Source: Chamaelirium japonicum
Taxonomy: Eukaryota > Streptophyta > Magnoliopsida > Liliales > Melanthiaceae
Direction of reading: 5' to 3'
Assembly: GCA_947650365.1 (NCBI GenBank)
Contig: CANTAL010000002.1
Coordinates: forward strand, 2,425,501-2,489,500
Length of the DNA: 64,000 nt
The notes beneath the pieces were generated by a model. That model was not told where the DNA came from. It made no database searches and saw only the letters and a program-made list of their open reading frames with translations. Of this stretch, positions 1 through 64,000 are shown piece after piece; position 1 is the stretch's first letter, and every line of letters begins with the position of its first letter. A program made the position numbers and the translations under genes.

Positions 1-98
1 CATTCATACGATCCATTCTAATTCATTCGTACAATCCATTCTAATTCATTCATACAATCCATTCTAATTCATTCATATGATCCATTCTAATTCATTCG
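1..98 (+). repeat. plus block, cut by window start
   Basis: Four monomers with CATACG and CATATG variants. The block turns over at about 98 through CATTCGTGCGAAGTAGAATGG. Confidence 0.85.
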
Positions 99-695
99 TG
101 CGAAGTAGAATGGATACCTTCGTGCAAATGAATTAGAATGGATCGTATGAATGAATTAGAATGAATCGTACGAATGAATTAGAATGGATCGTACGAATGA
201 ATTAGAATGGATCGTACGAATGAATTAGAATAGATGGTACGAATGAATTAGAATGGATCGTACGAAGGAATTAGAATGGATCGTACGAAGGAATTAGAAT
301 GGATAGTACGAATGAAGTAGAATGGATACCTTCGTGCGAATGAATTAGAATGGATCGTATGAATGAATTAGATTGGATCGTATGCATGAATTAGAATGGA
401 TCGTGCGAATGAATTAGAATGGATCGTACGAATGAATTAGGATGGATCGAACGAATGAATTAGAATGGATCGTACGAATGAGTAAGAATGGATCGTACGA
501 ATGAATTAGAGTGGATCGTACGAATGAATTAGAATGGATACATTCGTGCGAATGAATTAGAATGGATCGTACGAATGAATTAGAATGGATCGTTTGAGTG
601 AATGCGAATGGATCGTGCGAATGAATTAGAATGGATTATACGAATGAATTAGAATGGATCGTACGAATGAATTAGAATGGATACATTAGTGCGAA
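99..695 (-). repeat. minus block
   Basis: It opens with two CCTTCGTGCAAATG or CCTTCGTGCGAATG long monomers. At about 585-625 it holds the diverged monomer GTTTGAGTGAATGCGAATGG. It ends in the junction ATACATTAGTGCGAATCC. Confidence 0.9.
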
Positions 696-1552
696 TCCAT
701 TCTATTTCATTCGTACGATCCATTCTAATTCATTCGCACGATCCATTCTAATTCATTCATACGATCCATTCTAATTCATTCGTACGATCCATTCTAATTC
801 ATTCGTACGATCCATTCTAATTCATTCGCACAATCTATTCTAATTCATTCGTACGATCCATTCTAATTTATTCGCACGATCCATTCTAATTCATTCATAC
901 GATCCATTCTATTTCATTCGTACGATCCATTCTTACTCATTCGTACGATCCATTCTAATTCATTTGCACGAAGGTATCCATTCTAATTCATTCGTACTAT
1001 CCATTCTAATTCATTTGTACGATGCATTCTAATTCCTTCGTACGATCCATTCTAATTCATTCGTACGATCCATTCTAATTCATTCGTACGATCCATTCTA
1101 ATTCCTTCGTATGATCCATTCTAATTCATTCGTACGGTATGATTCATTCTAATTCATTCGTACGATTCTTTCTAATTCAATCCATTCTAATTCATTCATA
1201 CGATCCATTCTATTTCATTCGTACAATCCATTCTAATTCATTCGCACGATCCATTCGCATTCACTCAAACGATCCAATCTAATTCATTCATACGATCCAT
1301 TCTATTTCATTTGCACGAAGGTATCCATTCTAATTCATTCGTATTATCCATTCTAATTCATTTGTACGAATGTATCCTTTCTAATTCATTCATACGATCC
1401 ATTCTAATTCATTCGCACGATCTATTCTAATTCATTCATACGATCCATTCTAATTCATTAATACGATCCAATCTAATTCATTCATACGATCCATTCTAAT
1501 TCATTCGTACGATCCATTCTAATTCATTCATACGATCCTATTCTTACTCTAA
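696..1552 (+). repeat. plus block
   Basis: It carries the ordered variant string TATTTC, TTACTC, TTTGCACGAAGGTATCC, GTACTATCC at about 905-1010. The CGGTATGATTC plus TCAATCC marker is at about 1133-1190 and the CATTCGCATTCACTCAAACG monomer at about 1248-1272. It ends at a TAATTA fold centred on 1552. Confidence 0.9.
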
Positions 1553-1880
1553 TTAGAATAGATTGTGCGAATGAATTAGAATGGATCGTACGAATGAATT
1601 AGAATGGATCGTAGTAATGAATTAGAATGGATCCTACGAATGAATTAGAATAGATTGTGCGAATGAATTAGAATGATACATTCGTACGAAGGAATTAGAA
1701 TGCACCGTACGAAAGGAATTAGAATGGATAGTACGAATGAATTAGAATGGATTGAATTAGAATGAATCGTACGAATGTATTAGAATGGATCATACGAAGG
1801 AATTAGAATGGATCGTACGAATGAATTAGAATGGATCGTACGAATGAGTTAGAATGGATCGTACGATAAGAATGGATCGT
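1553..1880 (-). repeat. minus block
   Basis: It includes GTAGTAATG and ATCCTACG variants near 1610-1640, which recur at about 20991 and 36189. It ends at GGATCGTGTATCC, a shortened form of the common 19-bp junction. Confidence 0.9.
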
Positions 1881-2709
1881 GTATCCATTCTAATTCATTC
1901 GTACGATCCATTCTAATTCCTTCGTATGATCCATTCGTACGATCCATTCTAATTCATTCGCACGATCCATTCTAATTCATTCGTACGATCCATTCTATTT
2001 CATTCGTATGACCCATTCTAATTCATAAGTACGATCCATTCTAATTCATTCGCACGATCCATTCTAATTCATTCATACGAATCCATTCTATTTCATTCAT
2101 ATGATCTATTCTATTTCATTCGTACAATCTATTCTAATTCATTCATACGATCCATTCTAATTCATTCGTACGATCCATTCTAATTCATACGATCTATTCT
2201 AATTCATTCGTACGATCCATTCTAATTCATTCGCACAATCTATTCTAATTCATTCTAATTCATTCGCACGATCCATTCTAATTCATTCATACGATCCATT
2301 CTAATTCATTCGCACGAATGTATCCATTCTAATTCATTCGCACGATCCATTCTAATTCATTCATACAATCCATTCTTACTCATTCGTATTATCCATTTTA
2401 ATTCATTCACACGAATGTATCAACTCTAATTCATTCGTACGATTCATTCTAATACAATCCATTCTAATTCATTCGTACGATCCATTCTAATTCATTCATA
2501 CGATCCATTCTAATTCATTCGTACGATCCATTCTAATTCATTCGCACGAACCATTCGCATTCACTCAAACGATCCATTCTAATTCATTCATATGATCCAC
2601 TCATTCGTACGATCCATTCTTACTCATTCGTACGATCCATTCTAATTCATTTGCACGAAGGTATCCATTCTAATTCATTCGTACTATTCATGCGATCCAT
2701 TCATTCGTA
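1881..2709 (+). repeat. plus block, start of the 5.5-kb unit
   Basis: From about 2360 the order of variants matches that from about 7960. The CACACGAATGTATCAACTC monomer at about 2408-2427 is shared with about 6628, 12035 and 37015. The block ends in the unusual string ATTCATGCGATCCATTCATTCG, whose near-copy is at about 8283. Confidence 0.88.
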
Positions 2710-2958
2710 CGAAAGAATTAGAATGGATTGTATGAATGAATTAGAATGGATCGTGCGAATGAATTAGAATGCGAATGAATTAGAATGGATCGTACGAATG
2801 AATTAGAATAGATTGTGCGAATGAATTAGAATGGATCTGGATCGTGTATCCATTCTAATTCATTCGTACGACCCATTCTAATTCATTCGTACGATCCATT
2901 CTAATTCATTCGCATTCTAATTCATTCGCACGATCCATTCTAATTCATTCATATAATC
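2710..2958. repeat. short minus/plus mosaic
   Basis: Minus at about 2710-2840, then plus at about 2841-2958, with the 19-bp junction GGATCTGGATCGTGTATCC at 2833-2851. The same pair of short blocks is found at 8306-8556. Confidence 0.85.
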
Positions 2959-2960
2959 AA

Positions 2961-3316
2961 TTGAATTAGAATGGATCGTACGAATGAATTAGAATGGATC
3001 GTACGAATGAATTAGAATAGATTGTGCGTACGAATGAATTAGAATGGATCGTACGAATGAATTAGAATGGATCGTGCTAATGAATTAGAATGGATCGTGC
3101 GAATGAATTAGAATGGATCGTGCGAATGAATTAGAATGGATCGTGCGAATGAATTAGAATGGATCGTACGAATGAATTAGAATGGATACATTCGTGCGAA
3201 TGAATTAGAATGGATCGTGCGAATGAATTAGAATGGATCGTACGAATGAATTAGAATAGATTGTGCTAATGAATTAGAATGGATCGTATGAATGAATTAG
3301 AATGGATACATTCGTG
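2961..3316 (-). repeat. minus block
   Basis: A run of GTGCG-type monomers, ending in the ATACATTCGTGCGAATCC junction. It matches 8557-8914. Confidence 0.88.
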
Positions 3317-4190
3317 CGAATCCATTCTATTTCATTCGTACGATCCATTCTAATTCATTCGCACGATCCATTCTAATTCATATATACGATCTATTCTAAT
3401 TCCTTCGTACGATCCATTCTAATTCATTCGTACGATCCATTCTAATTCCTTTGTATGATCCATTCTAATTCATTCGTACGGTATGATTCATTCTAATTCA
3501 TTCGTACGATTCATTCTAATTCAATCCATTCTAATTCATTCGTACGATCCATTCTAATTTCTTCGTATGATCTATTCTAATTCCTTCGTACGATCCATTC
3601 TATTTCATTCGTATGATCCATTCTAATTCATTCGTACGATCCATTCTAATTCATTCGTACGATCCATTCTAATTCATTCGTACGATTCATTCTAATTCAA
3701 TCCATTCTAATTCATTCCATTCTAATTCATTCGCACGATCCATTCGCATTCACTCAAACGATCCATTCTAATTCAGTCATACAATCCATTCTAATTCTTT
3801 TGCACGAATGTATCCATTCTAATTCATTCGTACGATCCATTCTAATTCATTCGTATGATCTATTCTAATTCATTCGCATGATCCATTCTAATTCCTTCAT
3901 ACGATCCATTTTAATTCATTCGCACGATCCATTCTAATTCATTCATACGATCCATTCTAATTCATTCGTACGATCCATTCTAATTTCTTCGTATGATCTA
4001 TTCTAATTCCTTCGTACGATCCATTCTAATTCATTCGCACGATCTATTCTAATTCATTCATACGATCCATTCTAATTCATTCGTACGATCCATTCTAATT
4101 CCTTCGTATGATCCATTCTAACTCATTCGCATGATCCATTCTAATTCATTCACACAATCCATTCTAATTCATTCGTACGATCCATTCTAA
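3317..4190 (+). repeat. plus block
   Basis: The CGGTATGATTC marker is near 3476 and the CACTCAAACG monomer near 3745. Several TTTCTTCGTATGATC variants are present. It ends exactly at a perfect fold, TCCATTCTAATTAGAATGGA at 4181-4200. Confidence 0.9.
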
Positions 4191-6296
4191 TTAGAATGGA
4201 TCGTATGAATGAATTAGAATGGATCGTGCGAATGAATTAGAATGGATCGTACGAATGAAATAGAATGGATACATTCGTGCGAATGAATTAGAATGGATCA
4301 TATGAATGAATTAGAATGGATCGTTTGAGTGAATGCGAATGGATCGTGCGAATGAATTAGAATGGATTGTACGAATGAATTAGAATGGATCGTACGAATG
4401 AATTAGAATGGATACATTGGTGCGAATGAATTAGAATGGATCGTATGAATGAATTAAATTGGATCGTATGAATGAATTAGAATGGATTGTATGAATTAGA
4501 ATGGATACCTTCGTGCAAATGAAATAGAATGGATCGTACGAATGAATTAGAGTAGATTGTGCGAATGGATTAGAATGGATCATACGATTGAGTAAGGATG
4601 GATTGTACAAATGAAATAGAATAGATCGTGCGAATGAATTAGAATGGATCGTACGAATGAATTAGAATGGATCGTTCGAATGAATTAGAATAGATTTTGC
4701 GAATGAATTAGAATGGATCGTATGAATGAATTAGAATGGATCGTACGAATGAATTAGAATGGATCGTACGATTGAATTAGAATGGATCGTACGGATGAAT
4801 TGGAATGGATCGTGCGAATGAATTAGAATGGATCGTACGAATGAATTAGAATGGATCGTATGAATGAATTAGAATGGATCGTACGAATGAATTAGAATGG
4901 ATACATTCGTGCGAATGAATTAGAATGGATCGTATGAATGAATTAGAATCGATCGTACGAATGAATTAGAATCGATCATGCGAATGAATTAGAATGGATC
5001 GTGCGAATGAATTAGAATGGATCGTACGAATGAAATAGAATGGATCGTACGAATGAGATAGAATGGATCGTACGACTGAATTAGAATGGATCGTATAAAT
5101 GAATTAGAATGGATCGTGCGAATGAATTAGAATGGATCGTACGAATGAATTAGAATGGATCGTACGAAGGAATTAGAATGGATCGTACGAAGGAATTAGA
5201 ATGGATCGTACGAATGAATTTGAATGGATCGTACGAAGGAATTAGAATGGATCGTACGAAGGAATTAGAATGGATAGTACGAATGAATTAGAATGGATAC
5301 CTTCGTGCAAATGAAATAGGATGGATCGTACGAATGAGTAAGAATGGATCGTACGAATGAAATAGAATGGATCGTATGAATGCATTAGAATGGATCGTGC
5401 GAATGAATTAGAATGGATCGTACGAATGAATTAGAATGGATACATTCGTGTGAATGAATTAGAATGGATCGTATGAATGAATTAGAATCGATCGTACGAA
5501 TGAATTAGAATGGATCCTGTGAATGAATTAGAATGGATCGTGCGAATGAAGTAGAATAGATTGTGCGAATGGATTAGAATGGATCATACGATTGAGTAAG
5601 AAAGGATTGTACGACTGAATTAGAATGAATTAGAATGGATTCATTCGTGCGAATGAATTAGAATGGATCATACGGTTGATTAAGAATGGATTGTACGAAT
5701 GAAATAGAATAGATCGTACGAATGAATTAGAATGGATCATGCTAATGAATTAGAATTGATCGTACGAATGAATTAGAATAGATTGTGCGAATGAATTAAA
5801 ATGGATCGTATAAATGAATTAGAATGGATCGTATGAATGAATTGGAATGGATCGTGCGAATGAATTAAAATGGATCGTATGAATGAAATAGAATGGATCG
5901 TATGAATTAGAATGGATCGTACGAATGAAATAGAATGGATCGTATGAATGAATTAGAATGGATCGTGCGAATGAATTAGAATGGATCGTACGAAGGAATT
6001 AGAATGGATCGTACGAAGGAATTAGAATGGATAGTACGAATGAATTAGAATGGATACCTTCGTGCAAATGAATTAGAATGGATCGTACGAATAAGTAAGA
6101 ATGGATCGTATGAATGAAATAGAATGGATCGTATGCATGAATTAGAATGGATCGTGCGAATGAATTAGAATGGATCGTACGAATGAATTAGAATGGATCG
6201 TACGAAGGAATTAGAATGGATCGTATGAATGAATTAGAATTGATCGTGCGAATGAATTAGAATGGATCGTACGAATGAAATAGAATGGATTCGCAT
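4191..6296 (-). repeat. long minus block, copy 1
   Basis: About 90 monomers. The CCTTCGTGCAAATG long monomer occurs near 4507, 5299 and 6057. The GAAGTAGAATAG variant is near 5547. Homologous blocks lie at 9785-11700 and in 16326-18826; compared with the 9785 copy, this one has five more monomers between 4191 and 4901 and three more between 4901 and 5301. It ends in GGATTCGCATGAATGTATCC. Confidence 0.9.
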
Positions 6297-23130: not shown

Positions 23131-23654
23131 CACGAATGTATCCATTCTAATTCATTCGTACGATCCGTTCTAATTCATTCGTACGATCCATTCGTACGAT
23201 CAATTCTATTTCATTCGTACGATCCATTCTAATTCATTCGCATGATCCATTCGCATTCACTCAAACGATCCATTCTAATTCATTCATATGATCCATTCTA
23301 ATTCATTCGCACGAATGTATCCATTCTATTTCATTCGTACGATCCATTCTAATTCATTCGTACGATCCATTCTAATTCATTCGCACAATCTATTCTAATT
23401 CATTAGTACGATCCATTCTAATTCATTCGTACGATCCATTCTAATTCATTCGTACGATCCATTCTAATTCATTCGTACGATCCATTCTAATTCATTCGCA
23501 CAATCTATTCTAATTCATTCGAACGATCCATTCTAATTCATTCGTACGATCCATTCTAATTCATTCGTACGATCTATTCTTTTTCATTCGTACAATCCAT
23601 TCTTACTCAATCATATGATCCATTCTAATCCATTCGCACAATCTACTCTAATTC
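23131..23654 (+). repeat. plus block
   Basis: The CACTCAAACG monomer is near 23260. From about 23402 its order matches about 29321 onward. It ends CTACTCTAATTCGAATGG. Confidence 0.88.
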
Positions 23655-23990
23655 GAATGGATCGTACGAATGAAATAGAATGGATTCGCACGAATGTATC
23701 TGAATGGATCGTACGAAGGAATTAGAATGGATCGTACGAAGGAATTAGAATGGATAGTACGAATAAATTAAAATGGATAGTACGAATGAATTAGAATGGA
23801 TACTACGAATGAATTAGAATGGATCGTACGAATGAATTAGAGTGGATCATATGAATGAATTAGAATGGATCGTATGAATGAATTAAAATGGATCGTGCGA
23901 ATGAATTAGAATGGATCATGCGAATGAATTAGAATGGATCGTACGAATGAATTAGAATGGGTCGTACGAATGAATTAGAATGGATACACG
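23655..23990 (-). repeat. minus block
   Basis: It contains a folded GATTCGCACGAATGTATC piece near 23685. It ends at the reverse 19-mer GGATACACGATCCAGATCC at 23982-24000. Confidence 0.88.
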
Positions 23991-24042
23991 ATCCAGATCC
24001 ATTCTAATTCATTCGCACAATCTATTCTAATTCATTCGTAGG
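23991..24042 (+). repeat. two-monomer plus island
   Basis: About 52 bp between the ACACGATCCAGATCC junction and CATTCGTAGGATCGTGCG. The same island recurs near 41320, 41830, 42025, 46770, 47212, 62495 and 62960. Confidence 0.88.
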
Positions 24043-24434
24043 ATCGTGCGAATGAATTAGAATGGATCGTGCGAATGAGTTAGAATGGATCGTACGAATG
24101 AATTAGAATGGATCGTACGAATGAATTAGAATGGATCGTACGAATGAATTAGAAAGGATACATTCGTACAAATGAATTAGAATGGATCGTACGAATGAAT
24201 TAGAGTAGATACATTCGTACAAATGAATTAGAATGGATCATACGAATGAATTAGTATGGATACATTCGTGCGAATGAAATAGAATAGATTCGTATGAATG
24301 AATTAGAATGGATCGTGCGAATGAATTAGAATGGATCGTACTTATGAATTAGAATGGGTCATACGAATGAAATAGAATGGATCGTACGAATGAATTAGAA
24401 TGGATCGTGCGAATGAATTAGAATGGATCTGGAT
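24043..24434 (-). repeat. minus block
   Basis: It includes AGAAAGGATACATTCGTACAAATG and two similar long monomers. It ends at the forward 19-mer at 24425-24443. Confidence 0.88.
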
Positions 24435-24725
24435 CGTGTATCCATTCTAATTCATTCGCACGATCCATTCTAATTCATTCGCACGATCCATTCTAATTCA
24501 TTCATACGATCCATTCTAATTCATTCATATGATCCACTCTAATTCATTCGTATGATCCATTCTAATTCATTCGTAGTATCCATTCTAATTCACTCGTACT
24601 ATCCATTCTAATTCATTCGTACTATCCATTCTAATTCCTTCGTATGATCCATTCTAATTCCTTCGTACGATCCATTCGGATACATTCATGCGAATCCATT
24701 CTATTTCATTCGTACGATCCATTCG
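24435..24725 (+). repeat. plus block with minus island
   Basis: A minus remnant of about 15 bp (GGATACATTCATGCG, about 24678-24692) interrupts it. Equivalent remnants sit near 37931 and 53358. Confidence 0.82.
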
Positions 24726-29596: not shown

Positions 29597-30371
29597 GAAT
29601 GGATCGTACGAATGAAATAGAATGGATTCGCACGAATGTATCCGAATGGATCGTACGAAGGAATTAGAATGGATCGTATGAAGGAATTAGAATGGATAGT
29701 ACGAATGAATTAGAATGGATACTACGAATGAATTAGAATGGATCGTACGAATGAATTAGAGTGGATCATATGAATGAATTAGAATGGATCGTATGAATGA
29801 ATTAGAATGGATCGTGCGAATGAATTAGAATGGATCGTGCGAATGAATTAGAATGGGTCGTACGAATGAATTAGAATAGATTGAATTAGAATGAATCGTA
29901 CGAATGAATTAGAATGAATCATACCGTACGAATGAATTAGAATGGATCATACGAAGGAATTAGAATGGATCGTACGAATGAATTAGAATGGATCGTACGA
30001 ATGAATTAGAATGGATCGTACGAAGAAATTAGAATGGATCGTATGAAGGAATTAGAATGGATAGTACGAATGAATTAGAATGGATACCTTCGTGCAAATG
30101 AATTAGAATGGATCGTACGAATGAGTAAGAATGGATCGTACGAATGAAATAGAATGGATCGTATGAATGAATTAGAATGGATCGTGCGAATGAATTAGAA
30201 TGGATCGTACGAATGAATTAGAATAGATTGTTCGAATGAATTAGAATGAATCGTACGAATGAATTAGAATGGATCGTACGAATGAATTAGAATGGATCGT
30301 ATAAATGAATTAGAATGGATCGTGCGAATGAATTAGAATGGATCGTACGAATGAAATAGAATGGATTCGCA
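29597..30371 (-). repeat. minus block
   Basis: A folded CGCACGAATGTATCCG piece lies near 29629. The minus CATACCGTACG marker is near 29917 and the AAGGTATCC-type string, in minus form, at about 30060-30170. Confidence 0.88.
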
Positions 30372-37541: not shown

Positions 37542-38176
37542 AATCCATTCTATTTCATTCGTACGATCCATTCTAATTCATTCCCACGATCCATTCTAAT
37601 TCATTCATACGATCCATTCTAATTCATTCACACGAATGTATCCATTCTAATTCATTCGTACGATCCATTCTAATTCATTTGTATGAATGTATCCACTCTA
37701 ATTCATTCGTACGATCTATTCTAATTCATTCGTACGATCCATTCTAATTCATTCGCACGATCCATTCTAATTCATGCATACGATCCATTCTATTTCATTC
37801 GTACGATCCATTCTTACTCATTCGTACGATCCATTCTAATTCATTTGCACGAAGGTATCCATTCTAATTCATTCGTACTATCCATTCTAATTCCTTCGTA
37901 CGATCCATTCTAATTCCTTCGTATGATCCATTTGGATATATTCGTGCGAATCCATTCTATTTCATTCGTACGATCCATTCTAATTCATTCGCACGATCCA
38001 TTCTAATTCATTCGTACGATCCATTCTAATTCATTCGTACGATCCATTCTAATTCATTCACACAATCTATTCTAATTCATTCGTACGATCCATTCTAATT
38101 CATTCGCACGATCCATTCTTACTCATTCGTACGATCCATTCTAATTCATTCGCACGATCCATTCTAATTCATTAAT
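37542..38176 (+). repeat. plus block with minus island
   Basis: The TATTTC/TTACTC/AAGGTATCC string lies at about 37790-37925. A minus remnant of about 20 bp, GGATATATTCGTGCG, is near 37934-37948. Confidence 0.85.
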
Positions 38177-40110
38177 ATGAGTTAGAATGAATTAGAATGG
38201 ATCGTACGAATGAATTAGAATGGATCGTACGAATGAATTAGAATGGATCGTGCAAATGAATTAGAATGGATCGTACGAATGAAATAGAATGGATTCGCAC
38301 GAATGTATTCGAATGGATCGTACGAAGGAATTAGAATGGATCGTACGAAGGAATTAGAATGGATAGTACGAATGAATTAGAATTGATAACTTCATGCAAA
38401 TGAATTAGAATGGATCGTACGAATGAGTAAGAATGGATCGTACGAATGAAATAGAATGGATCGTATGAATGAATTAGAATGGATCGTGCGAATGAATTAG
38501 AAAGGAATAGAATGGATTCATTCTAATTCATACGATCGTACTAATGAATTAGAATAGATTGTGCGAATGAATTAGAATGGATCGTACAAATGAATTAGAA
38601 AGGATATATTCGTGCGAATGAATTAGAATAGATCGTACGAATGAGATAGAATGGATCGTACGAATGAATTAGAATGGATACATTATGCGAATGAATTAGA
38701 ATGGATCATACGAATGAATTAGAATGGATCGTACGAATGAAATAGAATGGATTGTACGAATGAGATAGAATGGATCGTACTAATGAATTAGAATGGATAC
38801 ATTCATGTGAATGAATTAGCATGGATCGTACGAATGAATTAGAATGGCTACATTCGTGCGAATGAATTAGAATGGATCATACGAAGGAATTAGAATGGAT
38901 CGTACGAATGAATTAGAATGGATACACGATCCAGATCCATTCTAATTCATTCGTGCGAACGAATTAGAATGGATCGTATGAGTGTGAATGAATTAGAATG
39001 GATTGTGCGAATGAATTAGAATGGATCGTACGAATGAATTAGAGTGGATCGTACGAATGAATTAGAATGGATACATTCGTGCAAAAGAAGTAGAATGGAT
39101 TGTATGAATGAATTAGAATGGATCGTGCGAATAAATTAGAATGGATCGTACGAATGAGTAAGAATGGATCGTACGAATGAATTAGAATGGATCGTACGAA
39201 TGAATTAGAATGGATCATATGAATGAATTAGAATAGATCGTGCGAATGAATTAGAATAGATTGTGCGCATGAATTAGAATGGATCGTACGAATGAATTAG
39301 AATGGATCGTACGAATGAATTAGAATGGATCGTACGAATGAATTAGAATGGATCATAGTAATGAATTAGAATGGATCCTATGAATGAATTAGAATAGCGT
39401 GCGAATGAATTAGAATGGATCGTACGAATGAATTAGAATGGATCGTATGAATGAATTAGAATAGATTTTACGAATGAAATAGAATAGATCGTACGAAGGA
39501 AATAGAATAGATTCGTATGAATGAATTAGAATGGATCGTGCGAATGAATTAGAATGGATCGTACTTATGAATTAGAATGGGTCATACGAATGAAATAGAA
39601 TGGATCGTACGAATGAATTAGAATGGATCGTGCGAATGAATTAGAATGGATCGTACGAATGACTTAGAATGGATCGTTCGAATGAATTAGAATAGATTGT
39701 GCGAATGAATTAGAATGGATTGTACGAATGAATTAGAATGGATCGTACGAAGGAATTAGAATGGATCATACGAATGAATTAGAATGGATCGTACGAATGA
39801 ATTAGAATGGATTGAATTAGAATGAATCGTACGAATGAATTAGAATGGATTGTACGAATGAATTAGAATGGATCGTACGAATGAAATAGAATGGATCGTA
39901 TGAATGAATTAGAATGGATCGTGCGAATGAATTAGAATGGATCGTACGAATGAATGAGAATAGATTGTGCGAATGAATTAGAATGGATCGTACGAATGAA
40001 TTAGAATGGATCGTACGAATGAATTAGAAAGGATACATTCGTGCGAATGAATTAGAATGGATACCTTCGTGCAAATGAATTAGGATGGATCGTACGAATG
40101 AGTAAGAATG
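38177..40110 (-). repeat. minus block with two tiny plus islands
   Basis: Plus islands of about 20-25 bp lie near 38518-38537 and 38931-38955, the latter created by the reverse 19-mer at 38920-38938. GTATGAGTGTG and AAGAAGTAG variants near 38973 and 39085 match those in 42268-43470. Confidence 0.85.
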
Positions 40111-43610: not shown

Positions 43611-44189
43611 CCATTCTTACTCATTCGTACGATGCATTCTAATTCAATCCATTCTAATTCATTCGCATGATCCATTCTAATTCATTCGTACGATCGATTC
43701 TAATTCATTCATACGATCCATTCTTCTAATTCATTCGTACGATTCATTCTAATTCATTAGTACGATCCATTCGATCCAGATCCATTCTAATTCATTCGTA
43801 CGACCCATTCTAATTCATTCGTACGATCCATTCTAATTAATTCATACGATCCATTCTATTTCATTCGTACGATCCATTCTAACTCATTCGTACGATCCAT
43901 TCTAATTCATTCGCACGATCCATTCTAATTCATTCATATGATCCATTCTAATTCATTCGCACGAATGTATCCATTCTAATTCATTCGTACGATCCATTCT
44001 AATTCATTTGTAAGAATGTATCCACTCTAATTCATTCGTACGATCCATTCTAATTCATTTGTACGAATGTATCCTTTCTAATTCATTCGTACGATCCATT
44101 CTAATTCATTCGTATGATCCATTCTAATTCATTCGTACGATCCATTCTAACTCATTCGCACGATCCATTCTAATTCATTCGCACGATCC
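43611..44189 (+). repeat. plus block
   Basis: At about 43768-43785 the string CGATCCAGATCC retains half of the 19-bp junction without its minus partner, as though the minus block had been lost. From CGACCC at 43801 it matches 61282 onward. Confidence 0.86.
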
Positions 44190-44238
44190 TACGAATGAAT
44201 TAGAAAAGATTGTACGAATGAATTAGAATGGATCTGGA
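44190..44238 (-). repeat. two-monomer minus island
   Basis: It lies between CGATCCTACG and the 19-mer at 44230-44248. Counterparts are at about 61206 and 61672. It is the inverse of the two-monomer plus islands. Confidence 0.87.
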
Positions 44239-45152
44239 TCGTGTATCCATTCTAATTCATTCGTACGACCCATTCTAATTCATTCGTACGATCCATTCTA
44301 ATTCATTCGCACGATCCATTCTAATTCATTCGCACGATCCACTCTAATTCATTCATATGATCCATTCTAATTCATTCATAAGATCCACTCTAATTCATTC
44401 ATACGATCCATTCTAATTCATTCATACGATCCATTCTAATTTATTCGCACGATCCATTCTAATTCATTCGTACGATCTATTCTATTTCATTCGTACAATC
44501 CATTCTTACTCAATCGTATGATCCATTCTAATCCATTCGCACAATCTACTCTAATTCATTCATACGATCCATTCTAATTCATTCGTACGATCCATTCTAA
44601 TTCATTCGCACAATCTATTCTAATTCATTCATACGATCCATTCTAATTTATTCGCACGATCCATTCTAATTCATTCATACAATCCATTCTAATTCATTCA
44701 TATGATCCATTCTAATTTATTCGCATGATCCATTGTTACTCATTCGTACGATCCATTCTAATTCATTTGCACGAAGGTATCCATTCTAATTCATTCGTAC
44801 TATCCATTCTAATTCCTTCGTACGATCCATTCTAATTCCTTCGTACGATCCATTCTAATTCATTCGTACGGTCCTTTCTAATTCATTCGTACGATCCATT
44901 CTAATTCCTTCGTATGATCCATTCTAATTCATTCGTACGGTATGATTCATTCTAATTCATTCGTACGATTCATTCTAATTCAATCCATTCTAATTCATTC
45001 GTACGATCCATTCTAATTCATTCGTACGATCCATTCTAATTCATTCATACGATCCATTCTAATTCATTCATACGATCTATTCTAATTCTTTTGCACGAAT
45101 GTATCCATTCTAATTCATTCATACGATCTATTCTAATTCATTCGCATGATCC
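44239..45152 (+). repeat. plus block
   Basis: Up to about 44450 it matches 61723-61930. TTACTC/AAGGTATCC/GTACTATCC monomers lie at about 44735-44840 and the CGGTATGATTC marker near 44938. Confidence 0.88.
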
Positions 45153-46766: not shown

Positions 46767-47536
46767 TCCAGATCCATTCTAATTTATTCGCACAATCTAT
46801 TCTAATTCATTCGTAGGATCGTGCGAATGAATTAGAATGGATCGTGCAAATGAGTTAGAATGGATCGTACGAATGAATTAGAATGGATCGTACGAATGAA
46901 TTAGAAAGGATACATTCGTACAAATGAATTAGAATGGATCGTACGATTGAATTAGAGTGGATACATTCGTACAAATGAATTAGAATGGATCGTACGAATG
47001 AATTAGAATGGATACATTCGTGCGAATGAATTAGAATGGATCATATAAATGAATTAGAATGGATCGTGAGAATGAATTAGAATGGATCGTACGAATGAGT
47101 AAGAATGGATCGTACGAATGAAATAGAATGGATCGTATGAATAAATTAGAATGGATCGTACGAATGAATTAGAATGGGTCGTATGAATGAATTAGAATGG
47201 ATACACGATCCAGATCCATTCTGATTCATTCGCACAATTTATTCTAATACATTCGTAGGATCGTGCGAATGAATTAGAATGGATCGTGCGAATGAGTTAG
47301 AATGGATCGTACGAATGAATTAGAATGGATCGTACGAATGAATTAGAAAGGATACATCCGAATTCATTCGTACGATCCATTCTAATTCCTTCGTACGATC
47401 CATAGTCTAATTCATTCGCACGATCCATTCTAATTCATTCGTACGATTCATTCTAATTCAATCCATTCTAATTCATTCGTACGATCTATTCTAAATCATT
47501 CATACGATCCATTCTAATTCATACAATCTATTCTAA
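46767..47536. repeat. fine strand-switch mosaic
   Basis: Plus to about 46814, minus to about 47203, plus to about 47258, minus to about 47358, plus to a TAATTA fold at 47536. Reverse 19-mer at 47199-47217. The same order lies at 62491-63307, each block gaining 23 bp of offset. Confidence 0.86.
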
Positions 47537-48012
47537 TTAGAATGGATCGTACTAATGATTTAGAATAGATCGTACGAATGAATTAGAATGGGTCGTACGA
47601 ATGAATTAGAATGGATTGAATTAGAATGAATCGTACGAATGAATTAGAATGGATCGTGCGAATGAATTAGAATGGATCGTACGAATGAATTAGAATGGAT
47701 CGTACGAATGAATTAGAATAGATCGTACGAATGAATTAGAATGGATCATGCTAATGAATTAGAATTGATCGTACAAATGAATTAGAATAGATTGTGCGAA
47801 TGAATTAGAATGGATCGTACGAATGAATTGGATTGGATACATTCGTGCGAATGAATTAGAATGGATCGTATGAATGAATTAGAGTGGATACATTCGTACA
47901 AATGGATTAGAATGGATCGTACGAATGAATTAGAATGGATACATTCGTGCGAATGAATTAGAATGGATCGTATGAGAATAGATTGTGCGAATGAATTAGA
48001 ATGGATCTGGAT
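47537..48012 (-). repeat. minus block
   Basis: It contains ATACATTCGTACAAATGG and a short GTATGAGAATAG fusion near 47972, both shared with 63308-63708. It ends at the 19-mer, 48003-48021. Confidence 0.88.
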
Positions 48013-48457
48013 CGTGTATCCATTCTAATTCATTCGTACGATCCATTCTAATTCATTCGCACGATCCATTCTAATTCATTCGTACGATCCATTCTAATTC
48101 ATTCGTACGATTCATTCTAATTCAATCCATTCTAATTCATTCGTACGATCCATTCTTACTCATTCGTACGATCGATTCTAATTCATTCATATGATCCATT
48201 CTAATTCATTCGTAGGATCTATTCTATTTTATTCGTACAATCCATTCTTACTCAATCGTATGATCCATTCTAATCCATTCGCACAATCTAGTCTAATTCA
48301 TTCGTACGATCCATTCTAATTCATTCGTACGATCCATTCTAATTCATTCGCACAATCTATTCTAATTCATTCGTACGATCTATTCTAATTCATTAGCACG
48401 ATCCATTCTAATTCATTCGTACGATCCATTCTAATTCATTCATACGATCCATTCGTA
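48013..48457 (+). repeat. plus block
   Basis: The CTAGTC module (CTAGTC at 48288). It flips at ATTCGTACGAATG near 48457. Confidence 0.88.
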
Positions 48458-49178
48458 CGAATGAATTAGAATGGATACATTCGTGCGAATGAATTAGAAT
48501 GGATCGTACGAAGGAATTAGAATGGATAGTACGAATGAATTAGAATTGATGAATTAGAATCGATCGTACGAATGAATTAGAATGGATCATGCGAATGAAT
48601 TAGAAAGGATCGTGCGAATGAATTAGAATGGATTGTACGAATGAATTAGAATGGATCGTACGAATGAATTAGAATCGATACATTCGCACGAATGAATTAG
48701 AATGGATCATGCTAATGAATTAGAATGGATCGTACGAATGAATTAGAGTGGATACATTCGTACAAATGAATTAGAATGGATACATTCGTACGAATGAATT
48801 AGAATGGATCGTACGAATGAATTAGAATGGATACATTCGCACGAATTTGAATGGATCGTACGAATGAATTAGAATGGATCGTACGAATGAATTAGAATGG
48901 ATCGTATGAATGAATTAGATTGGATCGTATAAATGAATTAGAATGGATCGTACGAATGAATTAGAATGGATCGTGCTAATGAATTAGAATGGATCGTACG
49001 AATGAATTAGAGTGAATACATTTGTACAAATGAATTAGAATGGATACATTCGTGCGAATGAATTAGAATGGATCGTGCGAATGAATTAGAATGGATCGTA
49101 CGAATGAATTAGAATAGATTGTGCTAATGAATTAGAATGGATCGTATGAATGAATTAGAATGGATACATTCGTGCGAA
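48458..49178 (-). repeat. minus block
   Basis: Several ATACATTCGCACG and ATACATTCGTAC long monomers, and a monomer shortened to GAATTGATGAATTAG near 48540. It ends GTGCGAATCC. Confidence 0.87.
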
Positions 49179-52473: not shown

Positions 52474-52567
52474 GAATGGATCTGGATCGTGTATCCATTC
52501 GAATGGATCTGGATCGTGTATCCATTCGTACGATCCATTCGAATGGATCTGGATCGTGTATCCATTC
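52474..52567. repeat. three tandem hairpin junction units
   Basis: A 27-bp unit that starts GAATGGATCTGG and ends GTATCCATTC stands at 52474-52500 and 52501-52527. After 13 bp of monomer it stands again at 52541-52567. Each unit is a stem of GAATGGAT against ATCCATTC around the asymmetric CTGGATCGTGT centre. Elsewhere this junction appears once per strand switch; here minus DNA is reduced to the stem alone. Confidence 0.93.
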
Positions 52568-52937: not shown

Positions 52938-53659
52938 ATTCTAATTCCTTCGTACGATCCATTCTAATTCATTCGCACGATCCATTCTAATTCATTCGCA
53001 CGATCCATTCTAATTCATTCATACGATCCATTCTAATACATTCGTACGATTCATTCTAATTCAATCCATTCTAATTCATTCGTACGATCCATTCTAATTC
53101 ATTCGTACGATCCATTCTAATTCATTCATACGATCCATTCTAATTCATTCGCATGAATGTATCCATTCTAATTCATTCGTACGATCCATTCTAATTCATT
53201 CGCACAATCTATTCTAATTCATTCGTACGATCAATTCTAATTCATTCGCACGTATCAATTCTAATTCATTTGCATGAAGGTATCCATTCTAATTCCTTCG
53301 TACTATCCATTCTAATTCCTTCGTACGATCCATTCTAATTCCTTCGTACAATCCATTCGGATACATTCGTGCGAATCCATTCTATTTCATTCGTACGATC
53401 CATTCTAATTCATTCGCACGATCCATTCTAATTCATTCATACGATCCATTCTATTTCATTCGTACGATCCATTCTTACTCATTCGTACGATCCATTCTAA
53501 TTCATTCGCACGATCCATTCTACCATTCTATTTCATTCGTACGATCTATTCTAATTCATTCGCACGATCCATTCTAATTCATTCATACGATCCATTCTAA
53601 TTCCTTCGTACGATCCATTCTAATTCATTCTTACGATCCATTCTAATTCATTCGCACGA
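52938..53659 (+). repeat. plus block with minus island
   Basis: The GGATACATTCGTGCG minus remnant lies at about 53358-53373. A short ATTCTACCATTC deletion product is near 53518. Confidence 0.85.
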
Positions 53660-54234: not shown

Positions 54235-54850
54235 ATGGATCGTGCGAATGAATTAGAATGGATCGTACGAATGAATTGGAATTGATACATTCGTGTGAAT
54301 GAATTAGAATGGATCGTACGAATGAAATAGAATGGATCGTATGAATGAATTAGAATGGATCGTGCGAATGAATTAGAATGGATCGTACGAATGAAATAGA
54401 ATGGATTCGCACGAATGTATCCGAATGGATCGTACGAAGGAATTAGAATGGATTGTACGAAGGAATTAGAATGGATAGTACGAATGAATTAGATTGGATA
54501 CCTTCGTGCAAATGAATTAGAATGGATCGTACGAATGAGTAAGAATAGATCGTACGAATGAAATAGAATGGATCGTATGAATGAATTAGAATGGATCGTG
54601 CGAATGAATTAGAATGGATCGTACAAATGAATTAGAATAGATGGTGCGAATGAATTAGAATGGATCGTACGAATGAATTAGAATGGATCGTACGAATGAA
54701 TTAGAATGGATCGTATGCATGAATTAGAATGGATCGTACGAATGAATTAGAATGGATCGTACGAAGGAATTAGAATGGATCGTATGAATGAATTAGAATG
54801 GATCGTGCGAATGAATTAGAATGGATCGTACGAATGAAATAGAATGGATT
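54235..54850 (-). repeat. minus block
   Basis: It has a folded CGCACGAATGTATCCG piece near 54407, like the one near 29629. The CCTTCGTGCAAATG string is at about 54500-54580. It ends ATTCGCACGAATGTATCC. Confidence 0.86.
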
Positions 54851-55491: not shown

Positions 55492-55796
55492 GGAATGAAT
55501 TAGAATGGATCGTACGAATAAGTAAGAATGGATCGTACGAATGAATTAGAATGGATTGAATTAGAATGAATCGTACGAATGAATTAGAATGGATCTTACG
55601 AATGAATTAGAATGGATTGAATTAGAATGAATCGTACGAATGAATTAGAATGAATCATACCGTACGAATGAATTAGAATGGATCATACGAAGGAATTAGA
55701 ATAGATCGTACAAATGAATTAGAATGAATTAGAATAGATTGTGCGAATGAATTAGAATGGATCGTACGAATGAATTAGAATGGATCGTATGAATCG
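55492..55796 (-). repeat. minus block
   Basis: It carries the minus CATACCGTACG marker near 55658. It turns over through the palindrome ATCGTACGAT. Confidence 0.86.
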
Positions 55797-56930: not shown

Positions 56931-59855
56931 AATGTATCCATTCTAATTCATTCATACGATCCATTCTAATTCATTAGCACAATCTATTCTAATTCATTCG
57001 TACGATCCATTCTAATTCATTCGCACGATCCATTCTAATTCATTCACACGAATGTATCCATTCTAATTCATTTGTACGAATGTATCCACTCTAATTCATT
57101 CGTACGATCCATTCTAATTCATTAGCACGATCCATTCTAATTCATTCATACGATCCATTCTAATTCGTTTATACGATCCAATCTAATTCATTCATACGAT
57201 CCATTCTAATTCATTCGTACGATCTATTCTAATTCATTCGTACGATCCATTCTAATTCATGCGAATGTATCCATTTTAATTCATTCGTACGATCCATTCT
57301 AATTCATTCGTACGAATGTATCCATTCTAATTCATTTGTATGAATGTATCCACTCTAATTCATTCTAATTCATTCGCATGATCTATTCTAATTCATTCAT
57401 ACGATCCATTCTAATTCATTCATATGATCCATTCTAATTCATTCGCACGATCCATTCTTACTCATTCCTATGATCCATTCTAATTCATTCGCACGAATGT
57501 ATCCATTCTAATTCATTCGTACGATCCATTCTAATTCATTCGTACGATCCATTCTAATTCATTCGTACGATCCATTCTATTTCATTCGCACGATCTATTC
57601 TAATTCATTCATATGATCCAATCTAATTCATTCGCACGATCCATTCTAATTCATTCATACGATCCATTCTAATTCCTTCGTACGATCCATTCTAATTCAT
57701 TCGCACGATCCATTCTAATTCATTCTAATCCATTCTAATTCATTCGTACGATCTATTCTAATTCATTCATACGATCCATTCTAATTCATTCGTACAATCC
57801 ATTCTAATTTATTCGCACGATCAATTCTAATTCATTCGCACGATCCATTCTAATTCATTCGCACGAATGAATCCATTCTAATTCATTCGTACGATCCATT
57901 CTAATTCATTCATACGATCCATTCTAATTTATTCACACGATCCATTCTAATTCATTCGTACGATCTATTCTATTTCATTCGTACAATCCATTCTTACTCA
58001 ATCGTATGATCCATTCTAATCCATTCGCACAATCTATTCTAATTCATTCATACGATCCATTCTAATTCAATCGCACGATCCATTCTATTTCATTCGTATG
58101 ATTCATTCTAATTCAATCCATTCTAATTCATTCGCATGATCCATTCTAATTCATTCGTACGATCGATTCTAATTCATTCATATGATCCATTCTAATTCAT
58201 TCGCACGAATGTATCCATTCTAATTCATTCGTACGATCCATTCTAATTCATTCGCACAATCTATTCTAATTCATTCATACGATCCATTCTAATTTATTCG
58301 CACGATCCATTCTAATTCATTCATACGATCCATTCTAATTCATTCATATGATCCATTCTAATTCATTCGCACGATCCATTCTTACTCATTCGTACGATTC
58401 ATTCTAATTCATTCGCACGAATGTATCCATTCTAATTCATTCGTACGATCCATTCTAATTCATTCGTACGATCCATTCTAATTCCTTCGTATGATCCATT
58501 CTAATTCATTCACACGAATGTATCCATTCTAATTCATTCCTACGATCCATTCTAATTCATTCGCACGATCCATTCTAATTCATTCATACGATCCATTCTA
58601 ATTCCTTCGTACGATCCATTCTAATTCATTCGTACGATCCATTCTAATTCATTCGCACGATCCATTCTAGTTCATTCGTACGATCCATTCTTTTTCATTC
58701 ATACGATCCATTCTAATTCATTCATACGATCCATTCTAATTCATTCGCACGATCCATTCTAATTCATTCGCATGATCCATTCTAATTCATTCGTACGATC
58801 GATTCTAATTCATTCATACGATCCATTCTAATTCATTCGCACGAATGTATCCATTCTAATTCATTCGTACGATCCATTCTAATTCATTCATACGATCCAT
58901 CCTAATTCATTCGCACGAATGTATCCATTCTAATTCATTCGTACAATCCATTCTATTTCATTCATACGATCCATTCTTACTCATTCGTACGATCCATTCG
59001 TATCCATTCTAATTCATTCGTACGATCTATTTTAATTCATTCGTACGATCCATTCTAATTCATTAATATGAACCAATCTAATTCATTCATACGATCCATT
59101 CTAATTCATTCGTACGATCCATTCTAATTCATTCGCACGATCCATTCTAATTCATTCGCACGAATGTATCCATTCTAATTCATTTGTACGAATGTATCCA
59201 CTCTAATTCATTCGTACGATCCATTCTAATTCATTAGCACGATCCATTCTAATTCATTCGTACGATCCATTCTAATTCATTTATACGATCCAATCTAATT
59301 TATTCATACGATCCATTCTAATTCTTTCGTACGATCCATTCTAATTCATTCGTACGATCCATTCTAATTCGTGCGAATGTATCCATTCTAATTCATTCGT
59401 ACGATCCATTCTAATTCATTCGTACGAATGTATCCATTCTAATTCATTTGTACGAATGTATCCACTCTAATTCATTCGTACGATCCATTCTAATTCACTA
59501 GCACGATCCATTCTAATTCATTCGTACGATCCATTCTAATTCATTTATACGATCCAATCTAATTCATTCATATGATCCATTCTAATTCATTCGTACGATC
59601 CATTCTAATTCATTCGTACGATCCATTCTAATTCGTGCGAATGTATCCATTCTAATTCATTCGTACGATCCATTCTAATTCATTCGTACAATCCATTCTA
59701 ATTCATTCGCACGATCCATTCTAATTCATTCGCATGATCCATTCTAATTCATTCGAACGATCGATTCTAATTCATTCGTACTATCCATTCTAATTCCTTC
59801 GTACGATCCATTCGAATTCATTCGCACGAATGTATCCATTCTAATTCATTCGTAC
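56931..59855 (+). repeat. longest plus run (2.9 kb)
   Basis: About 127 monomers without a detected flip. The TTAGCACG / TTTATACGATCCAATC / GCGAATG module appears near 57120-57270, 59225-59380 and 59490-59640; the last two are 264 bp apart. It ends at the palindrome CATTCGTACGAATGG. Confidence 0.9.
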
Positions 59856-60585
59856 GAATGGATCGTATGAATGAATTAGAATGGATCGTACGAATGAATT
59901 AGAATGGATCGTGCTAATGAATTAGAATGGATCGTACGAATGAATTAGAATAGATTGTGCGAATGAATTAGAATGGATCGTACGAATGAATTAGAATGGA
60001 TCGTACGAAAGAATTAGACTAGATTGTGCGAATGGATTAGAATGGATCATACGATTGAGTAAGAATGGATTGTACGAATGAAATAGAATAGATCGTACGA
60101 ATGAATTAGAATGGATCGTATGAATGAATTAGAATCGATCGTACGAATGAGTAAGAATGGATCGTACGAATGAATTAGAATGGATTGAATTAGAATGAAT
60201 CGTATGAATGAATTAGAATGTATCGTACGAATGAATTAGAATGGATCGTGCGAATGAATTAGAATGGGTCGTACGAATGAATTAGAATGGATACACGATC
60301 CAGATCCATTCTAATTCATTCGCACAATCTATTCTCATACAATCCATTCTAATTCATTCGCACGAATGTATCCATTCTAATTCATTCGTACGATCCATTC
60401 TAATCCATTTGTACGAATGTATCCACTCTAATTCATTCATACGATCCATTCTAATTCATTCGCACGAATGTATCCATTCCAATTCATTCGTACGATCCAT
60501 TCTAATTCATTCGCACAATCTATTCTAATTCATTCGTACGATCAATTCTAATTCATTAGCATGATCCATTCTAATTCATTCGTAC
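59100..60585. repeat. segmental copy of 33120-34620
   Basis: Right edge near 60585, where CCTTCGCACG replaces the TATTTC monomer of the other copy. Left of about 59100 the monomer order differs. Confidence 0.9.
59856..60298 (-). repeat. minus block
   Basis: Counterpart of 33891-34333 at offset 25965, with the TTAGACTAG variant and the reverse 19-mer at 60289-60307. Confidence 0.9.
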
Positions 60586-60727
60586 GATCCATTCTAATTC
60601 CTTCGCACGATCCATTCTAATTCATTCGTACGATTCATTCTAATTCAATCCATTCTAACTCATTCGTACGATCCATTCTAATTCATTCGTACGATCCATT
60701 CTAATTCATTAGTACGATCCATTCTAA
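60299..60727 (+). repeat. plus block
   Basis: It matches 34334-34620, then diverges near 60585 into CCTTCGCACG and TTCAATCC monomers. It ends at a TAATTA fold. Confidence 0.88.
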
Positions 60728-61256
60728 TTAGAATAGATTGTATGAATTAGAATGGATCATATGAATGAATTAGAATAGATCGTACGATCCATTCTAATTC
60801 CTTCGCACGATCCATTCTAATTCATTCGTACGATTCATTCTAATTCAATCCATTCTAATTCATTCGTACGATCCATTCTAATTCATTAGTATGGTCCATT
60901 CTAATTAGAATAGATTGTATGAATTAGAATGGATCGTATGAATGAATTAGAATAGATCGTACGAATGAATTAGAATGGATTGAATTAGAATGAATCGTAC
61001 GAATGAATTAGAATGGATCGTGCGAATGAATTAGACTATGGATCGTACGAAGGAATTAGAATGGATCGTACGAATGAATTCGGATGTATCCTTTCTAATT
61101 CATTCGTACGATCCATTCTAATTCATTCGTACGATCCATTCTAATTCATTCGTACGATCCATTCTAACTCATTCGCACGATCCATTCTAATTCATTCGCA
61201 CGATCCTACGAATGAATTAGAATAGATTGTACGAATGAATTAGAATGGATCTGGAT
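60728..61256. repeat. fine strand-switch mosaic
   Basis: Minus to about 60785, plus to a TAATTA fold at 60904, minus to about 61083, plus to about 61205, minus to about 61256. The plus-to-minus fold with ATTGTATGAATTAG is present twice here (60727, 60904) and at 42267. The 19-mer is at 61247-61265. Confidence 0.85.
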
Positions 61257-61671
61257 CGTGTATCCATTCTAATTCATTCGTACGACCCATTCTAATTCAT
61301 TCGTACGATCCATTCTAATTCATTCATACGATCCATTCTATTTCATTCATACGATCCTTTCTTACTCATTCGTACGATCCATTCTAATTCATTCGCACGA
61401 TCCATTCTAATTCATTCATATGATCCATTCTAATTCATTCGCACGAATGTATCCATTCTAATTCATTCGTACGATCCATTCTAATTCATTTGTACGAAAT
61501 GTATCCACTCTAATTCATTCGTACGATCCATTCTAATTCATTTGTACGAATGTATCCTTTCTAATTCATTCGTACGATCCATTCTAATTCATTCGTACGA
61601 TCCATTCTAATTCATTCGTACGATCCATTCTAACTCATTCGCACGATCCATTCTAATTCATTCGCACGATC
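61257..61671 (+). repeat. plus block
   Basis: It matches 43780-44189 and forms most of a 466-bp tandem unit: GTATCCTTTC at 61086 and 61552, GATCCTACG at 61202 and 61668. Confidence 0.9.
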
Positions 61672-61722
61672 CTACGAATGAATTAGAATAGATTGTGCGA
61701 ATGAATTAGAATGGATCTGGAT
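61672..61722 (-). repeat. two-monomer minus island
   Basis: The same island as 44190-44238, closed by the 19-mer at 61713-61731. Confidence 0.88.
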
Positions 61723-62145
61723 CGTGTATCCATTCTAATTCATTCGTACGACCCATTCTAATTCATTCGTACGATCCATTCTAATTCATTCGCACGATCC
61801 ATTCTAATTCATTCGCACGATCCATTCTAATTCATTCATACGATCCATTCTAATTCATTCATATGATCCACTCTAATTCATTCATACGATCCATTCTAAT
61901 CCATTCGCACAATCTATTCTAATTCATTCGTACGATCCATTCTATTTCATTCGTACGATCCATTCTATTTCATTCGTATGATCCATTCTAATTCATTCGT
62001 ACAATCCATTCTAATTCATTCGTACGATCCATTCTAATTCATTCATATGATCCATTCTATTTAATTCGTACGATCCATTCTTACTCATTCGTACGATCCA
62101 TCCTAATTCATTTGCACGAAGGTATCCATTCTAATTCATTCGTAC
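61723..62145 (+). repeat. plus block
   Basis: It ends with the TTACTC, TTTGCACGAAGGTATCC string and flips at CATTCGTACGAATG. Confidence 0.88.
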
Positions 62146-62490
62146 GAATGAAATAGAATGGATTGTACGAATGAAATAGAATGGATCGTACGAATGAATT
62201 AGAATGGATTGTACGAATGAATTAGAATGGATCGTACGAATGAAATAGAATGGATCGTACGAATGAAATAGAATGGATCGTACGAATGAATTAGAATAGA
62301 TTGTGCGAATGGATTAGAATGGATCGTATGAATGAATTAGAGTGGATCATATGAATGAATTAGAATGGATCGTGTGAATGAATTAGAATGGATCGTGCGA
62401 ATGAATTAGAATGGATCGTGCGAATGACTTAGAATGGATCGTACGAATGAATTAGAATGGGTCGTACGAATGAATTTGAATGAATACACG
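62146..62490 (-). repeat. minus block
   Basis: From about 62207 it matches 46505-46766. It ends in a reverse 19-mer with one change (62482-62500). Confidence 0.88.
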
Positions 62491-63307
62491 ATCCAGATCC
62501 ATTCTAATTCATTCGCACAATCTATTCTAATTCATTCGTAGGATCGTGCGAATGAATTAGAATGGATCGTGCGAATGAGTTAGAATGGATCGTACGAATG
62601 AATTAGAATGGATCGTACGAATGAATTAGAATGGATCGTACGAATGAATTAGAAAGGATACATTCGTACAAATGAATTAGAATGGATCGTACGAATGAAT
62701 TAGAGTGGATACATTCGTACAAATGAATTAGAATGGATCGTACGAATGAATTAGAATGGATACATTCGTGCGAATGAATTAGAATGGATCATATGAATGA
62801 ATTAGAATGGATCGTGCGAATGAATTAGAATGGATCGTACGAATGAGTAAGAAAGGATCGTATGAATGAAATAGAATGGATCGTATGAATGAATTAGAAT
62901 GGATCGTACGAATGAATTAGAATGGGTCGTACGAATGAATTAGAATGGATACACGATCCAGATCCATTCTAATTCATTCGTACAATCTATTCTAATTCAT
63001 TCGTAGGATCGTGCGAATGAATTAGAATGGATCGTGCGAATGAGTTAGAATGGATCGTACGAATGAATTAGAATGGATCGTACGAATGAATTAGAATGGA
63101 TCGTACGAATGAATTAGAAAGGATACATCCGAATTCATTCGTACGATCCATTCTAATTCCTTCGTACGATCCATAGTCTAATTCATTCGCACGATCCATT
63201 CTAATTCATTCGTACGATTCATTCTAATTCAATCCATTCTAATTCATTCGTACGATCTATTCTAATTCATTCATACGATCCATTCTAATTCATACAATCT
63301 ATTCTAA
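62491..63307. repeat. fine strand-switch mosaic, copy 2
   Basis: Plus to about 62541, minus to about 62956, plus to about 63005, minus to about 63130, plus to a TAATTA fold at 63307. CATAGTC at 63172 corresponds to 47401. Reverse 19-mer at 62947-62965. Confidence 0.87.
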
Positions 63308-63708
63308 TTAGAATGGACCATACTAATGAATTAGAATGGATCGTACGAATGAATTAGAATGGATTGAATTAGAATGAATCGTACGAATGAATTAGAATGG
63401 ATCGTGCGAAGGAATTAGAATGGATCGTACGAATGAATTAGAATGGATCGTACGAATGAATTAGAATAGATCGTACGAATGAATTAGAATGGATCATGCT
63501 AATGAATTAGAATTGATCGTACGAATGAATTAGAATAGATTGTGCGAATGAATTAGAATGGATCGTATGAATGAATTAGAGTGGATACATTCCTACAAAT
63601 GGATTAGAATGGATCGTACGAATGAATTACAATGGATACATTCGTGCGAATGAATTAAAATGGATCGTATGAGAATAGATTGTGCGAATGAATTAGAATG
63701 GATCTGGA
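63308..63708 (-). repeat. minus block
   Basis: Counterpart of 47537-48012, lacking about three monomers. It contains the GTATGAGAATAG fusion near 63669. It ends at the 19-mer, 63700-63718. Confidence 0.88.
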
Positions 63709-64000
63709 TCGTGTATCCATTCTAATTCATTCGTACGACCCATTCTAATTCATTCGCACGATCCATTCTAATTCATTCGTACGATTCATTCTAATTCAAT
63801 CCATTCTAATTCATTCGTACGATCCATTCTTACTCATTCGTACGATCGATTCTAATTCATTCATACGATCCATTCTAATTCATTCGTACGATCTATTCTA
63901 TTTCATTCGTACAAACCATTCTTACTCAATCGTATGATCCATTCTAATCCATTCGCACAATCTAGTCTAATTCATTCGTACGATCTATTCAAATTCATTC
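63709..64000 (+). repeat. plus block, cut by window end
   Basis: The CTAGTC module (CTAGTC at 63962). The array clearly continues past the window. Confidence 0.88.

Follow-up and report, generated by a model that had tools for sequence, protein, structure and literature searches.

Centromeric satellites differ among species in whether their arrays keep a single orientation, and the sister genera Chionographis and Chamaelirium form a published contrasting pair (PMC12722358). In the holocentric plant Chionographis japonica (Chamaelirium japonicum in NCBI), CENH3 nucleosomes sit on arrays of the centromeric satellites Chio1 and Chio2, which have 23- and 28-bp monomers, respectively (Kuo et al. 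2023, PMC10264360). Relative to Chio2, Chio1 is described there as lacking 5 bp and differing by one substitution; Chio carries an 8-bp dyad with hairpin potential, and its forward and reverse arrays are intermingled. The Chio monomer shares the 9-mer TTCGTACGA with the 60-bp monomer of Chama, the centromeric satellite of Chamaelirium luteum. In contrast to Chio arrays, which alternate frequently in orientation, Chama arrays are described as keeping a consistent orientation and as having higher-order structure that extends across several hundred kilobases (PMC12722358). Here, we analyze the strand switches in a 64,000-base stretch of Chamaelirium japonicum DNA (contig CANTAL010000002.1; hereafter, the window). 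Our reading, to which we assign a probability of about 0.85, is that the window is the interior of a Chio1/Chio2 centromere-unit array in which a few founding switches arose, many of them in Chio2-type monomers, and were then copied together with pieces of the array.

Kilobase-scale inverted subarrays joined at a few highly conserved inversion sites are also described for TmSat1 and TmSat2 of the beetle Tribolium madens, where two such sites, INV_1a and INV_1b, show 98.9% and 98.2% similarity and raw HiFi reads confirm the organization (PMC13081366). The window likewise contains inverted subarrays with conserved inversion sites, namely junction types A, B, and a, defined below. However, the TmSat monomers measure 225 and 704 bp, and their arrays are reported to hold predominantly two subarrays each (a few kb to tens of kb), whereas the window is divided into 129 unequal blocks. 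The window thus resembles the Tribolium macro-dyad but is organized differently, and the two are likened by description rather than by sequence.

The window (no N) consists of repeat throughout. Its autocorrelation peaks at 23 (0.746), with further peaks at multiples of 23. A circular two-strand hidden Markov model (HMM) built on the unit GAATTAGAATGGATCGTACGAAT, with a background state and Viterbi decoding, assigned every base to this unit and none to background. The resulting 64 plus blocks (35,066 bases) and 65 minus blocks (28,934 bases) range from 7 to 3,491 bp and are separated by 128 switches, a density of approximately 2 per kilobase. Eleven blocks shorter than 50 bp are uncertain; without them, arithmetic on the block list leaves 108 switches. 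Five parameter sets gave 128, 147, 236, 134, and 118 boundaries, although the counts of the second, third, and fourth sets include boundaries of the background state (70, 213, and 10 background bases, respectively). Three simulated one-strand arrays of randomly drawn monomers yielded 1, 0, and 0 switches. Because one-strand random arrays also contained 28-bp monomers (164 of 1,523), the model does not simply misread such monomers as switches. Blocks of at least 200 bp that were re-oriented and concatenated produced no switch, a partly circular control in that the same model had set the orientation, and the shuffled window fell into the background state throughout. An earlier, sequence-only reading of the window had described a 23-bp satellite that flips strand about 100 times in 64 kb, with plus and minus blocks alternating across the whole stretch, and both descriptions hold.

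The monomers agree with those of Chio. Of 1,900 monomer spacings, 1,222 are 23 bp, the dominant value, and 114 are 28 bp. The 23-mer GAATTAGAATGGATCGTACGAAT occurs exactly 246 times on the plus strand and 252 times on the minus strand (498 in total), and the 28-mer GAATTAGAATGGATACATTCGTGCGAAT 33 and 35 times (68 in total). Removal of 5 bp from the 28-mer gives the 23-mer at a Hamming distance of 1. The 9-mer TTCGTACGA, which is part of the unit, occurs 466 times on one strand and 547 times on the other, and the unit contains the dyads TCGTACGA, AATT, and GATC, the first of which fits the published 8-bp dyad, as compared by description only. Monomer lengths, the relation by deletion and substitution, the shared 9-mer, and mixed orientation together make a strong case that the satellite is Chio1/Chio2 of Chionographis japonica or of a very close relative, a case built on described properties. 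Plus and minus blocks draw on one monomer pool, since 83.0% of plus copies belong to exact variants also present on the minus strand, close to the 85.7% obtained with random strand labels. Exact 30- and 21-base unit patterns had no match in viral and prokaryote genome contigs, and neither did one 3,491-base block in a distant blastn search against plasmids and phages. A match of a unit fragment in a trypanosome paper was rejected as a source, being a PCR primer.

Convergent (plus-to-minus) junctions repeat a short list of sequences. When junction cores up to 2 edits apart are joined by single linkage, three linked classes of 31, 26, and 3 members take in 60 of the 64 convergent junctions. (Clustering by alignment score, at thresholds of 36, 40, and 44, chained many junctions together and was dropped for core matching.) As many as 53 of the 64 lie within 8 bp of GGATAC/GTATCC, compared with 7.1% of random positions (at most 20.3% in any of 500 sets) and with 2 of 64 divergent (minus-to-plus) junctions. 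GGATAC is common to the convergent types A, B, and C, and in the 28-bp monomer it opens the stretch that is absent from the 23-bp monomer; across the window, only 191 of 2,026 AGAATGG motifs continue as ATAC.

Sites of each type were taken as core matches with at most one error. Type A, a whole 28-bp monomer followed directly by minus-strand CCATTC, has 26 sites, 11 forward and 15 reverse, of which 19 stand at a called switch. Type B (core AATGGATACACGATCCAGATCCATTC) also has 26 sites, 13 in each orientation, and 22 are exact over 26 bases; it is the sharpest class, and allowing up to four errors adds no site. Type C has seven sites, one of them exact. The same relaxation to four errors was abandoned for A and C, since ordinary 28-bp monomers then match (147 each). 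Mean pairwise core identity is 0.978 for A, 0.988 for B, and 0.988 for the divergent type a, values favored by the selection of sites at no more than one error. The figure for B compares with a mean of 0.78 and a maximum of 0.913 among array 26-mers starting with AATGGAT (200 samples of 26), an approximate contrast whose gap is widened by both site choice and length variants among the control 26-mers.

Seven type-A cores lie within a block of one strand (23678-23701, 24678-24701, 29620-29643, 37934-37957, 38287-38310, 53359-53382, and 54399-54422). Just ahead of them, minus-strand CCATTC or CCATTT replaces the plus side, and these cores resemble remnants of switches that deletions later removed. 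Three type-B cores fall within 93 bp at 52474-52566, forming a tiny cluster of nested switches.

Divergent junctions form 21 classes at the same limit of 2 edits; the three largest hold 42 of the 64, and 14 junctions are single. Type a has 11 sites, 3 forward and 8 reverse, 9 of them exact. All 11 have a type-B site at 53-55 bp, and the two junctions constitute one cassette, B-a. Ungapped flanks of type a retain a median identity of 0.9-1.0 from about -100 to +120, and because the profile is ungapped, the fall-off from the core reflects indels in part rather than lost similarity. Many divergent junctions coincide with short palindromes of the unit; by our own reckoning, the reflection axis is that of TCGTACGA in 9 of 64 and that of AATT in 14 of 64, examples being CATTCGTACGAATG and TCTAATTAGA.

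These axes bear on an alternative in which each switch is a separate fold-back, produced by hairpin-primed synthesis or by template switching at short palindromes such as TCGTACGA. The dyads of the unit offer suitable sites, and predicted hairpin energies are -13.4 to -18.7 kcal/mol for four typical junctions versus -6.8 kcal/mol for plain array. Because these junctions fold more stably than plain array, a hairpin origin of the founding switches is possible. Yet the TCGTACGA axis occurs in 1 of 64 convergent junctions while 53 are at GGATAC, and near-identical junction copies exist in both orientations. In yeast, single-stranded DNA hairpins are reported to seed inverted duplications (PMC7467729), which makes this process a candidate for a founding switch; by contrast with most junctions here, it should leave mirrored arms.

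Two tests of arm symmetry address this expectation. The first, which allows no spacer and is blind to a young palindrome, gave median arm identities of 0.814, 0.826, and 0.838 (69, 57, and 42 junctions) against 0.821, 0.830, and 0.843 in the control. The second, which permits spacers of up to 250 bp, gave junction medians of 0.907 at 140 bp and 0.883 at 230 bp versus 0.900 and 0.883 for shuffled partners; 9 of 126 and 7 of 126 junctions, respectively, exceeded the 95% point of the control, where 6.3 are expected. Mirror symmetry beyond that of shuffled partners was thus not found at most junctions, the exception being the palindrome at 60780-63432, whose arms are about 99% identical. Recent fold-back at each switch is not supported, because such arms would be near-identical and are not, and we consider a separate fold-back for every switch unlikely. 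The suggestion of fold-back replication or palindrome-driven inversion in the sequence-only reading is accordingly not supported for most switches, whose arms resemble shuffled partners and whose junctions are copied, while the young inverted duplication and the divergent junctions on short palindromes speak for it. Its further claim, that neighboring kilobases can pair almost throughout, stands for imperfect inverted repeats (median arm identity 0.81 to 0.91, varying with arm length and method) and not for near-perfect palindromes, of which one was found.

The copying of switches with their surroundings is seen directly in duplicated segments. Eight duplicated pairs, taken from BLAST lists, were aligned, and all eight share switches. 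Alignment of the two copies of the 5-kb direct duplication (Table 1) gives 4,686 matches, 94 mismatches, and 221 gap bases, with all seven switches at matching places. The arms of the palindrome, the most alike inverted duplication found, align with 1,283 matches, 10 mismatches, and 1 gap base. Coinciding switches number 6 of 7 in the left arm and 6 of 6 in the right arm, and the palindrome is clearly a young inverted duplication. A second inverted pair, 47477-49165 and 59048-60787, has 1,597 matches, 46 mismatches, and 143 gap bases, with 3 of 3 switches coinciding in both copies, and a third, 23650-24426 and 43805-44579, shares 2 of 3 and 2 of 2. The remaining four pairs are direct; their first copies share 2 of 3, 1 of 2, 3 of 3, and 4 of 4 switches with second copies that contain 5, 2, 6, and 4 switches, respectively. 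Among the direct pairs, the overlapping duplication 40867-41497/41385-42015 has copies that are shifted by 518 bp, are about 95% identical, and share 4 of 4 switches.

These pairs also weigh on whether the switches are largely an artefact of assembly, created by mis-joined or palindromic reads. Satellite arrays are difficult to assemble, and assembly error had been raised as a possible partial cause when alternation was first noted. Against this stand the diverged duplicates, which carry the same switches despite many substitutions: the 5-kb direct pair shares all of its switches, and so, for the most part, do the three inverted pairs. Because diverged copies keep the same switch at the same place, random mis-joining is unlikely. 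Moreover, the published assembly is reported to combine PacBio HiFi reads at 58.5x with hifiasm (PMC10264360), which is relevant if the window derives from it. An artefactual origin is not favored and seems very improbable.

The spread of copies can be followed beyond the aligned pairs. The best matches found elsewhere for 284 segments of 184 bp are 97.2% identical at the median, and 130 of the 284 are inverted, against 49.4% expected if strand were irrelevant. Inverted matches account for 7 of 12 at less than 1 kb, 21 of 83 at 1-6 kb, and 102 of 189 beyond 6 kb. Mostly direct matches at 1-6 kb and either orientation farther away suggest short-range tandem duplication combined with long-range exchange that is blind to orientation. 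Most of the switches appear to be copies of a small set of old junctions, located for the most part in one repeat variant.

The proposed history would begin with few founding strand switches, in many cases located within a 28-bp Chio2-type monomer or at its end. Such switches may have arisen by hairpin- or microhomology-driven template switching, the convergent ones possibly at the extra dyad of Chio2. Array pieces already holding switches would then have been copied by duplication and exchange in both orientations, with tandem duplication probably acting at short range and, over longer distances, gene conversion, inversion, or the re-insertion of copies.

Foldback-type transposons have long terminal inverted repeats made of short tandem units, and nested insertions of such elements might produce alternating blocks. 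The conserved convergent centers and variable divergent joins of the window resemble the fixed center and variable ends of these elements. Non-repeat stretches are nevertheless absent, and the eight open reading frames (ORFs) of at least 60 amino acids (64-73) are all read-through of the repeat, for which reason coding potential was rejected. In summaries over pairs, median similarity around junction copies fades at distances that depend on junction type and without an evident common edge. In the account of Kuo et al. (PMC10264360), Chio has no similarity to annotated transposable elements. Nested transposons are the least probable of the explanations weighed here.

Several points weigh against the proposal that copies of a few founding switches fill a Chio array. 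The identification of Chio relies on described properties and not on a letter-by-letter match to the published consensus. Class counts depend on the threshold, and 3 edits merge nearly everything (3 convergent and 6 divergent classes), while core matching at no more than one error favors uniform copies. Divergent junctions are more varied than convergent ones and are not tied to Chio2, and some switches in duplicated pairs are unshared. Because junction copies are kin by descent, the 53 of 64 at GGATAC are not 53 independent events and point instead to few founding events located in Chio2-type monomers; independent switches in such monomers may number about three to six. Some switches may also have begun as fold-backs long ago, with later reshuffling of their arms.

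A more tentative extension, which we regard as possible but doubtful, assigns the Chio2 monomer itself the role of a strand-switch seed. The extra dyad of this monomer (CATTCG-TG-CGAATG), located behind GGATA, would make the replication or repair machinery reverse direction at that point, and the resulting cassettes would spread through holocentromere units without regard to orientation. In that case, a plant holocentromere and beetle centromeres would have acquired conserved inversion sites independently of each other, and the alternation of strands would be a maintained feature rather than debris.

Provided that the Chio identification holds, the alternating orientation of Chio is already in print (PMC12722358), and the anatomy of the junctions is the addition. 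Relative to the Chio description as represented in PMC10264360, the junction sequences, the number of switches per kilobase, and the location of switches in Chio2 are added here. No published description of Chio junction sequences was found in the paper sections and literature listings covered. A short list of recurrent junctions makes the alternation of orientation countable, and each type can be traced in the assembly and in raw reads.

Table 1. Positions of the array, example monomers, junctions, and duplicated segments in the window.
Feature	Start	End	Strand	Basis
Chio-like satellite array, uninterrupted	1	64000	.	Viterbi segmentation, 64 plus and 65 minus blocks
Longest block on one strand, 3,491 bp	25466	28956	+	HMM segmentation
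Example 23-bp monomer, Chio1-like, GAATTAGAATGGATCGTACGAAT	176	198	+	sequence
Example 28-bp monomer, Chio2-like, GAATTAGAATGGATACATTCGTGCGAAT	526	553	+	sequence
Convergent type A, exact copy, core GGATACATTCGTGCGAATCCATTC	3304	3327	+	core matching
Convergent type C, exact copy, core GAAAGGATACATTCGAATTCATTCG	51387	51411	-	core matching
Cassette B-a: convergent type B, then divergent type a 53 bp on	46754	46830	+	segmentation, core matching
Direct duplication, first copy, 7 switches	2600	7600	+	alignment
Direct duplication, second copy, same 7 switches	8196	12975	+	alignment
Segment with inverted copy at 59048-60787	47477	49165	+	alignment
Palindrome, left arm with internal switches	60780	62073	+	alignment
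Palindrome, right arm, 66-bp spacer between arms	62140	63432	-	alignment

A scan of the window against Rfam at gathering thresholds matched no family. Other variants recur across it, including the 15-mer GAATTAGAATGGATT (47 copies) and a second 28-mer variant with ACCTTCGTGCAAAT (26 copies, 13 per strand). The CpG positions of the unit (14, 15, 18, and 19, counted from 0) show raised C-to-T and G-to-A variants throughout the window, with transitions at about 5-19% at these four positions versus about 1-9% at four other G positions. This excess is compatible with methylated CpG, although not decisive because the copies are related; high CpG methylation is reported for Chio (PMC10264360).

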